64,000 nucleotides of DNA from Desulfobulbaceae bacterium (GTDB lineage: Bacteria; Desulfobacterota; Desulfobulbia; Desulfobulbales; Desulfobulbaceae), in NCBI GenBank assembly GCA_011391865.1, contig JAABPV010000022.1, positions 1 through 64,000 of the forward strand, in the 5' to 3' direction. The notes under the pieces are model-generated. The model did no database searches. It saw only the letters and a list, made by a program, of their open reading frames with translations, and was not told where the DNA came from. The position numbers and the translations under genes are program-made. Position 1 is the first letter of the stretch; each line of letters starts with the position of its first letter. This document shows, in pieces, positions 2,779 to 49,142 of this stretch.

Positions 2779-3040
2779 AAATTCAATTGGAATCAAGGCG
2801 ATTCCAATTGAATTTGCCCTGATTCACACTGAAATCGTCCCGTTTTCGACCGGAATCAGCCTGATTCAAATTGAAATCGCTCTGATTTACACTTGAATTG
2901 CCCCAATTTCAATTGAAATTGCCCCGATTCACACTTAAATCGGGACGATTTAAACGTAAATCGGCTTGATTCCAGTGTGAATCGCCCTGATTTCAATTGA
3001 AATCGGAGCGTTTTAAGTGTAAAACGGCCCGATTTAAACG
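2779..3040. repeat. array of 16-bp palindromic units, exact 21-bp period
   Basis: Thirteen unit starts fall at 2779, 2800, 2821 and so on to 3031, with no indel. Each unit is about 16 bp, of the form GATT-8 nt-AATC, and is a full or partial palindrome (GATTTCAATTGAAATC at 2989; GATTCACACTGAAATC at 2821). Units are separated by 5-bp spacers, mostly GCCCT, GCCCC or close variants. Some units are near reverse complements of others (2821 and 2968). Twenty-one bp is two turns of B-DNA, so every palindrome faces the same side. The array lies between the pentapeptide gene start (2703) and the livK 3' end (3133). The same family recurs at 48667-48892. Confidence 0.9.
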
Positions 3041-3094
3041 AACAACACAACAGATAAAACCGTAAAAATTCAGATTCTTGCCGCGTCCGGCCTT

Positions 3095-10189: not shown

Positions 10190-10274
10190 CTGACCATGCT
10201 CGCGGTTGTCCCCTGAGCATGGTCAGGGTCGGACGCTGAGCATGGTCAGGGTTGTCCCCTGACCATGCTCGCGT
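10190..10274. repeat. array of inverted 16-bp units, 23-bp period
   Basis: Four 16-bp units start at 10190, 10213, 10236 and 10259: CTGACCATGCTCGCGG, CTGAGCATGGTCAGGG twice, then CTGACCATGCTCGCGT. Outer and inner units are largely reverse complements of each other (TGACCATGCTC against GAGCATGGTCA). The 7-bp spacers are TTGTCCC, TCGGACG and TTGTCCC. The array ends about 105 bp before the start of the HU-like gene at 10380. The design matches the arrays at 22494 and 37459 although the cores differ. Confidence 0.88.
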
Positions 10275-20409: not shown

Positions 20410-20469
20410 AAACCCTGTTTCAGTGAATGCTGCAACAGCTTCGAGTTTGAGCTGCTGAGAATATTCTTA

Positions 20470-20526
20470 GTGACAATTTTTGTCACCAACTGACAAAAAT
20501 TGTCACCAACTGACAAGAATTGTATT
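20470..20526. promoter_or_regulatory. TGACA/TGTCA palindromes upstream of the pilin promoter
   Basis: Three palindromic sites at 20-bp spacing: GTGACAATTTTTGTCAC (20470-20486), TGACAAAAATTGTCAC (20491-20506) and TGACAAGAATTGTA (20511-20524), with CAAC spacers. They lie about 75-130 bp before the sigma-54 element. TGTC-type sites are known for PilR, the activator of RpoN-dependent pilin genes, so these may be the enhancer sites. The link is inferred from position and motif. Confidence 0.6.
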
Positions 20527-22493: not shown

Positions 22494-22578
22494 AAACACG
22501 TAGGCATTCAAGACATAAACACGTAGGCATTTAAGACATAAACACGTAGGCATTTATGTGTTGAATGCCTACGTGTTT
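22494..22578. repeat. array of 16-bp units with 23-bp period, last unit inverted
   Basis: Three direct copies of AAACACGTAGGCATTC or close variants start at 22494, 22517 and 22540, each followed by a 7-bp spacer (AAGACAT in the first two). The fourth unit, at 22563, is the exact inverse (GAATGCCTACGTGTTT) and keeps the 23-bp step. It lies about 80 bp upstream of the HU-like gene start at 22413. The remaining stretch (22579-22644) has no gene. Confidence 0.9.
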
Positions 22579-22644
22579 GTTTTCCGGCTCCGCTCGAGGC
22601 TGTGCCGTCGCGCCTCGTTCGTCGTCGTCATCGCCTGCTGCGCT

Positions 22645-37458: not shown

Positions 37459-37589
37459 CGATGCATGGTTCGAGATTGCCCCGATGCATGGTTCGAGCCT
37501 CGTCCGAACCATGCTTCGGGCCTCATCCGAATTATGCTTCGAGCCTGGCCCGAACCATGCTTCGAGATTTTCTCGATGCATGGTTCGAG
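37459..37589. repeat. array of inverted 16-bp units, 23-bp period
   Basis: Six 16-bp units start at 37459, 37482, 37505, 37528, 37551 and 37574. Units 1, 2 and 6 are CGATGCATGGTTCGAG. Units 3-5 are CGAACCATGCTTCGGG, CGAATTATGCTTCGAG and CGAACCATGCTTCGAG, roughly the inverse. Seven-bp spacers are ATTGCCC, CCTCGTC, CCTCATC, CCTGGCC and ATTTTCT. It lies between the adh stop (37630) and the glgB start (37287). The core ACCATGC is shared with the array at 10190. Confidence 0.88.
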
Positions 37590-37629
37590 ATTTTGCCGGG
37601 CCGCCGCGTCACGCAGGGCCGCCGCCCGC

Positions 37630-48173: not shown

Positions 48174-48440
48174 ATGTTTGGACTCGGAACCCCTGAATTG
48201 GTCGTCATTCTCGGCATCGCCTTCCTGCTCTTCGGCGGCAAGAAACTGCCGGAAATCGGCGCAGGCTTGGGCAAGGCGATCCGCTCGTTCAAAAACGGCC
48301 TGAACGAGGTGGAGGAGGCGACCGGCATGGAAGGCATCGCCAAACGGCTGCCTGTGGCGCGCGAGATTTCCGCTGTGCAGGATAAGATCGACAAAGCCAA
48401 GGACATCAGCAGAATGCTGACGAAGCAACCCAAGTTGTGA
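48174..48440 (+). CDS. TatA/TatB-family protein
   Basis: 88 residues: MFGLGTPELVVILGIAFLLF, then GGKKLPEIGAGLGKAIRSFK and a longer polar tail (GLNEVEEATGMEGIAKRLPV). It is either a second TatA or a TatB. The longer tail favours TatB slightly. It lies 42 bp after tatA with GGAG before the ATG, so the two are co-transcribed. Confidence 0.85.
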   Translation: MFGLGTPELVVILGIAFLLFGGKKLPEIGAGLGKAIRSFKNGLNEVEEATGMEGIAKRLPVAREISAVQDKIDKAKDISRMLTKQPKL

Positions 48441-48490
48441 CCTCTGCTGTTCAGGGAAAAGTTTCTTGCGTATGCCGGGCGGAAGGAGGA

Positions 48491-48517
48491 GCATAAACCT
48501 TATGCAGAAGTTTTTTT
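48491..48517 (+). terminator. terminator after the Tat genes
   Basis: GCATAA (48491-48496) and TTATGC (48500-48505) form a 6-bp stem with a 3-nt loop, followed by AGAAG and seven T residues. The stem is short, but position and T-tract suit the tat operon end. Confidence 0.55.
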
Positions 48518-48666
48518 GCTCAGCCCAGCCTGAAGCATCCGCTTTTCCCGCAGGCAAGGCTGTCTCTGCGCGTTCACAGCAGCTCTGCTGAATTATTCTG
48601 TTTTTCCGCCGCCTGCGCCGGAAGGATGCTCGTTTCAATTGCGGCGGAGCACGCTTGTTTTGCCCT

Positions 48667-48892
48667 GATTCCAATTGGAATCGTGTCAATGTCGATTGGA
48701 ATCAGGGCAAAGTCAATTGGAATTGGAGCGATTCCGATTGGAACCGGGGCAATTCCAATCGGAATCAGGGTAATTTCAATTGGAACCGGGCTGATTCCAA
48801 CAGAAATCGTGTCAATTCCAACTGGAATCAGGGCGATTCCAATTGACTTTGGCCCGGTTCCAATCGAAAACGCCCCGGTTCCAATTTGAATC
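48667..48892. repeat. second array of the GATTCCAATTGGAATC family, 21-bp period
   Basis: Eleven units start at 48667, 48688, 48709 and so on to 48877, exactly 21 bp apart. The consensus is GATTCCAATTGGAATC, with 5-bp spacers such as AGGGC, GTGTC, GGGGC and GCCCC. Perfect palindromes occur (first unit) along with degenerate ones. The array is in the 700-bp gap between tat genes and 49143; the remainder has no gene. Confidence 0.9.
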
Positions 48893-49142
48893 GGGGCGAT
48901 GCAAACGCGTTTTCCGGCGGCTGCGGCGGGTTTTCAGCCGGAACAAAGCGGTTCCGCAGCGCATGACGCAGCGTTCCGCTTGGCTGCAATTCCTGCAAGA
49001 GTTCAAAACAGAGCAGTCCTCAAAACGTAGTGACAACCCAATTTGTTACAGGTCACAACTTGGGTTGACGAAGTAAATTCTTTGGCGGCAAACGGCTGGC
49101 CGACACAGCCCCCTGCATTCGCAGTCTCTCCTTCCGTAGATT

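Follow-up and report, generated by a model that had tools for sequence, protein, structure and literature searches.

The window, the whole stretch of 64,000 nucleotides analyzed here, belongs to a 2.80-Mb draft genome of 87 contigs. At positions 48667-48892 it carries an array (winB hereafter, no strand assigned) of 11 units, each composed of a 16-bp near-palindrome, RATTYMAATTKRAATY, and a 5-bp RNNNY spacer, giving a period of 21 bp. The winB consensus, GATTCCAATTGGAATC, is a perfect palindrome that only the first unit matches exactly, and Tandem Repeats Finder scored the array at 137 to 215. A sister array of 13 units (winA, 2779-3046, likewise without strand) lies 45.6 kb away, between a pentapeptide-repeat gene and a gene for a periplasmic binding protein. 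A preliminary description of this DNA had reported 11 units, separated by 5-bp spacers and repeating every 21 bp exactly, and a related array about 46 kb off, and both observations were borne out, the units stepping by 21 throughout.

The gene adjoining winB encodes a tyrosyl-tRNA synthetase that shares 90% identity with its counterpart in Desulfobulbaceae bacterium UBA5173, 81% with that in Ca. Electronema aureum, 80% with that in Desulfobulbus sp. F5 and 77% with that in Ca. Electronema sp. KV. Judged by its sequence, the window genome is that of a Ca. Electronema-type cable bacterium. Cable bacteria are filament-forming bacteria that conduct electricity. They are described as having no pure culture (PMC10926707).

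The window holds several other repeats. Unrelated to the 21-bp arrays, palindromes with core CGAASCATGSTTCG form an array of period 23 at 37459-37590; this family recurs once elsewhere in the genome (C44:22242-22395, L124), where it shows a register slip. Four palindromes resembling CTGASCATGSTCAG and repeating every 23 bp (10190-10272) share a CATG centre with that family. At 22494-22579, three direct repeats of 23 bp (AAACACGTAGGCATTTAAGACAT) precede an inverted copy, and operator-like tandem palindromes, TGACAA...TTGTCA, lie at 20467-20510.

The winB array lies within a gene-free stretch of 638 bp (48428-49065, plus strand) that begins with the terminal inverted repeat ACCCAAGTTGTGACCT (48428-48443, plus strand) and ends with its reverse complement (49050-49065, minus strand). 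Directly outside these ends are the two copies of a target-site duplication, TGACGAAGCA at 48418-48427 and TGACGAAGTA at 49066-49075 (no strand assigned), which agree at nine of ten positions, and the right copy includes the start of the presumed original stop codon of a TatA-type gene (48174-48440, plus strand). In two relatives, Ca. Electronema aureum (L054) and Desulfobulbus sp. F5 (L053), the empty site can be read at the end of tatA as ACGAAG-TGA, which places the winB insertion at the tatA stop codon. Through the insertion, the window's TatA has gained the residues QPKL at its end, these and the stop codon being supplied by the inserted element and its duplication. Immediately inside the left end, 49 bp (48444-48492, plus strand) match, at 94% identity, the 3' end of a reading frame on another contig (C60) and are apparently the captured 3' end of a CFI-box-CTERM-type gene, an assignment of the C60 frame that rests on the domain of its homologue in genome G003.

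Three copies of this element are present in the genome, at winB and on contigs C3 and C86, two of them 638 bp long and one 659 bp. They align at about 94% identity over about 640-662 bp while their outer flanks are unrelated, and the C3 copy carries one exact 21-bp unit more than the other two. Their inverted ends read ACCCAAGTTGT(G/A)ACCT, and the terminal repeats are 16 bp long in all three copies with a single mismatch, in C3. The flanking duplications measure 8 bp (8/8 matching), 9 bp (9/9) and 10 bp (9/10, at winB), and the target differs each time (TAAATTCA twice and TATCTTGTA twice at the other copies). No transposase-like ORF was seen inside the window copy, which thus has the features by which miniature inverted-repeat transposable elements (MITEs) are recognized: terminal inverted repeats, a target-site duplication, no internal transposase and several copies. 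Since the inverted ends, the duplications, the presence of three copies and the empty site all point to a MITE-like element carrying a minisatellite, we consider it highly probable that the winB array makes up the body of a small nonautonomous transposable element, which would be a cable-bacterium MITE that bears a minisatellite. The winB array is not a fixed chromosomal landmark. The preliminary description had named location inside mobile elements as an observation that would favor a selfish origin, and for winB that is what we found.

A transposase supplied in trans would presumably recognize the ACCC... ends and move the element. No transposase with such ends was found in the draft genome, where a search located the ends on the three copies and at one solitary two-mismatch match in C44, around which no transposase was recognized by eye among the listed ORFs. 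From the ACCC ends, our guess was an IS982-like mover. The single transposase that we found, of the DDE_Tnp_1_3 type, has different ends. The element had no blastn match among plasmids and phages, and an exact 47-base pattern had none among IMG/VR viral contigs.

Arrays of this family extend well beyond the element. Allowing three mismatches, the 16-mer had 59 matches per strand in the 2.80-Mb genome, and the reversed pattern had none. Among the matches listed there are at least 11 arrays, a lower bound, spread over ten contigs. Thus, the dispersed intergenic family that the preliminary description proposed from two copies stands, while the count of two does not, and its view of the arrays as related but old suits the family and not the winB copy, which is recent given its identity to the other two. 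Terminal repeats and target duplications were demonstrated for the winB type, and a search by eye of the sequences of the other array types, eight further arrays in this genome, did not establish them there. A second case of dispersal is provided by the arrays on C12 and C33, which are 88% identical over 299 bp and have unrelated flanks. The winA array and the arrays G003C7 and G004C135 have both array and flanks in common, indicating that some arrays have been inherited in place. Because some arrays are old and occupy one place in several species, most are not currently hopping.

An ABC-transporter gene (ABC_membrane and ABC_tran domains), which we take to be msbA, follows the C12 array after 54 bp. 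In G003, the neighbor gene on the array's other side has an array downstream, at a distance of about 0.8 kb. C12 (L034) and G003:C6 (L146) place an array beside the same upstream gene with a different gene on the far side, as if gene order had been broken near the array, so some arrays sit where gene order differs between species. The two flanks of the C6 array of the window genome fall on separate contigs in G003.

We searched 257 genomes of the order with a two-unit pattern, allowing up to three mismatches, and found close matches in 10 genomes, all of them in Ca. Electronema (4 of 5 genomes in that group) and Ca. Electrothrix (6 of 8), with none in the other 244. The fifth Electronema genome, G002, has an array that is more diverged. 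In Ca. Electrothrix scaldis (G108), whose genome is closed (one contig, 5,089,909 bp), we located four array places, the first at 3.62 Mb and the remaining three at 4.405-4.413 Mb. A trio of arrays in identical order occupies about 7 kb in this genome (L106) and about 6 kb in G105 (L107), another Electrothrix species; its third member counts 13 units in G108 and 5 in G105, in otherwise near-identical sequence.

The preliminary description had suggested that a chromosome-wide pattern would support a role in DNA organization, with arrays anchoring a nucleoid protein and defining domains in the manner of BIMEs or parS-type clusters. The arrays are indeed multicopy, intergenic and two-fold symmetric, with a period equal to two helical turns. 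However, copy number ranges from at least 11 in the window genome to the 4 located in the closed genome of 5.09 Mb, three of which start within 7.2 kb of one another, and the sequence upstream of msbA, the place of C12 in the window genome, carries no array in G001, G002 or G003. Nor are the arrays confined to two in the genome, the other outcome that the preliminary description thought would speak for selfishness. Given that winB lies in a recent mobile element and that the closed genome contains few arrays, most of them clustered, we rejected an organizing role as the main reading and regard it as very improbable.

We surveyed the phase of 42 arrays (19 from Electronema and 23 from Electrothrix), comprising 496 units at 5-18 per array; the arrays G002:C77 and G003:C6 are not among the 42, and L113 was dropped because it held no array under our chain rule of at least four units. 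Unit matches with up to three mismatches were in phase 438 times and off phase 13 times, and the latter were mostly shifted self-matches of in-phase units, with a few in or near array ends. Among 15 compared pairs, nearly all length differences within arrays were 21, 42, 63 or 126 bp, whereas the 60-bp flanks of the same pairs had indels of 1 to 12 bp and a few longer ones. Three diverged pairs (winA/G004C135, G004C231/G001C14 and G001C46/G001C82) showed small or odd-sized gaps in the alignment inside arrays, and their units were still in phase. The array sequence diverges about as fast as its flanks and is not itself conserved. The 21-bp period is strictly kept in two genera while the letters have changed.

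A period of 21 bp corresponds to seven codons, and an 87-codon ORF (48626-48889, plus strand) crosses the winB array, as a coding repeat would require. Yet stops interrupt nearly all frames of the ten arrays that we checked and no frame is open in all ten, so we give a coding repeat practically no chance of being correct.

To describe which letters the units tolerate, we considered 364 distinct interior units and found that, at 15 of the 21 positions (1-4, 6, 8, 9, 11-17 and 21), two letters account for at least 95% of units. To avoid circularity, the alphabet was learned on the 23 Electrothrix arrays, in which 15 positions qualified, and tested on eight pairs of Electronema arrays. Of 151 substitutions in these pairs, 125 fit the Electrothrix alphabet and 26 broke it. 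At positions that allow one particular transversion, 53 of 74 substitutions conformed, while flanking DNA showed 249 transitions versus 125 transversions. The array-pair comparisons of length, clumping and alphabet share members and are therefore not independent. In addition, the changes clump, with 20 of 224 half-units carrying three or more changes versus about 9 expected under a Poisson distribution. Since such clumping per half-unit is what copying from unit to unit gives, selection on the alphabet appears likely and is not proven.

We also asked whether the two halves of a unit change together, using 13 of the 15 listed arrays (C33 and G001C82 were dropped as near-duplicates; C3, C86, G003C7, G004C231 and G001C14 had been left out earlier as close copies). 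Mirror pairs matched within units at 5.12 of 8 positions versus 5.16 after shuffling (z = -0.7), so the halves do not covary within arrays. Pairing across the spacer fell below chance (z = -3.1), and the outer halves of neighboring units were weakly above it (z = 2.4). When subfamilies were pooled, the dyad positions 6/11 and 7/10 did covary. The lack of mirror covariation within arrays speaks against hairpins formed by units and in favor of half-sites that are independent.

This result bears on the idea that the arrays act in RNA, as transcript hairpins that terminate, stabilize or regulate neighboring messages. The element does fold strongly, at -295 kcal/mol versus a mean of -213 kcal/mol for 20 shuffles, and the sister array also lies far below its shuffles, although strong folding follows from inverted repeats alone. 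The pairing that hairpins call for is missing within units and depressed across spacers, the excess between outer halves of neighboring units is weak, and the best Rfam match reached 30 bits versus a gathering score of 95. With neither mirror covariation within units nor Rfam matches, we rejected an RNA hairpin as the main reading and think it decidedly unlikely.

For the kept phase and letters there are two explanations. The first is that the arrays are a purely selfish or neutral minisatellite in which slippage and copying between units alone maintain both the phase and the set of words. The clustering of changes by half-unit is what template switching or conversion would give, and the arrays diverge roughly as fast as their flanks. 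On the other hand, unselected copying should also spread new letters, and yet the same two letters are used per position in two genera; and not one phase shift was seen in 42 arrays although short indels are frequent in the flanks. We put this explanation a little short of an even chance.

The second explanation is that the array may be a binding platform for a putative homodimeric protein, a tentative reading that we would expect to fail more often than to hold. Each unit would then be a two-fold-symmetric, double-stranded site bound by the homodimer, which is the weaker of the steps proposed, and one dimer per two helical turns would hold the array in phase. Protein binding is our best guess as to why phase and letters are kept. 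The strict phase, the independently varying half-sites and the two-letter alphabet are in keeping with such a platform, although no protein of this kind was found. Against the platform stand the 26 of 151 substitutions that lie off the alphabet and the covariation of dyad positions 6/11 and 7/10 across subfamilies, and copying between units could keep the alphabet without selection. Taken to its full extent, the platform reading would describe phased operator platforms for a putative homodimer particular to cable bacteria. MITE-like transposition would have spread them and selection would then have retained them, with 5-18 dimers in a row covering a single face of the DNA at intergenic places scattered through both genera; that combined account seems to us rather unlikely.

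Whatever maintains them, the arrays have several uses. The winB element is a clean marker of recent transposition in cable bacteria, and the arrays are variable-number loci usable for strain typing. Because its unit length and its permitted letters stay constant over two genera, the minisatellite offers testable evidence for a hidden DNA-binding partner. Our results also carry a warning, that element ends should be looked for before dispersed palindrome arrays are read as chromosome architecture.

In searches of the literature on repeats and palindromes of cable bacteria and on MITEs with tandem or palindromic repeats, we recognized no paper describing this array family. The Ca. Electrothrix scaldis study, in its account of repeats, counted those longer than 250 bp at more than 99% identity (PMC10926707), a threshold under which 21-bp arrays would be missed. 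What looks new is the strict phase over 42 arrays, the independent variation of half-sites within arrays and a two-letter alphabet shared across genera.

Modular intergenic repeats with a variable number of units are familiar from the BIME of E. coli and the BOX of pneumococcus, whose sequences presumably differ from those of the arrays here. REPINs and REP doublets, which are moved by RAYT transposases, resemble the arrays in being intergenic, palindromic, mobile DNA, and ordered tandem REPIN clusters exist (PMC3116915). As defined there, a REPIN consists of two inverted REPs beside RAYT genes (PMC3116915), whereas our 42 arrays consist of 5-18 equal units, repeated at a constant interval of 21 bp, and not of two inverted REPs as the replicative unit, and the winB array, unlike a REPIN, lies inside an element with terminal inverted repeats and target-site duplications. 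The closest precedent for the winB element is BrickBuilt of Porphyromonas gingivalis, which is reported to have 19 copies per genome, a 23-nt imperfect tandem array and ends matching IS5-family elements (PMC4596501). In the features given in that account, both are nonautonomous, gene-free and intergenic, with small inverted ends around a short tandem array; BrickBuilt varies in repeat number between strains and is mostly confined to a single species and its sister (PMC4596501). The two differ in sequence and in period (21 versus 23), and the ends of the winB element, ACCCAAG... (ACCCAAGTTGTGACCT), match no IS found in the genome, whereas those of BrickBuilt are of the IS5 type, GAGACC... (PMC4596501). 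Compared with BrickBuilt as described, the winB units are palindromes with spacers, and the element is flanked by clean target duplications of 8-10 bp.
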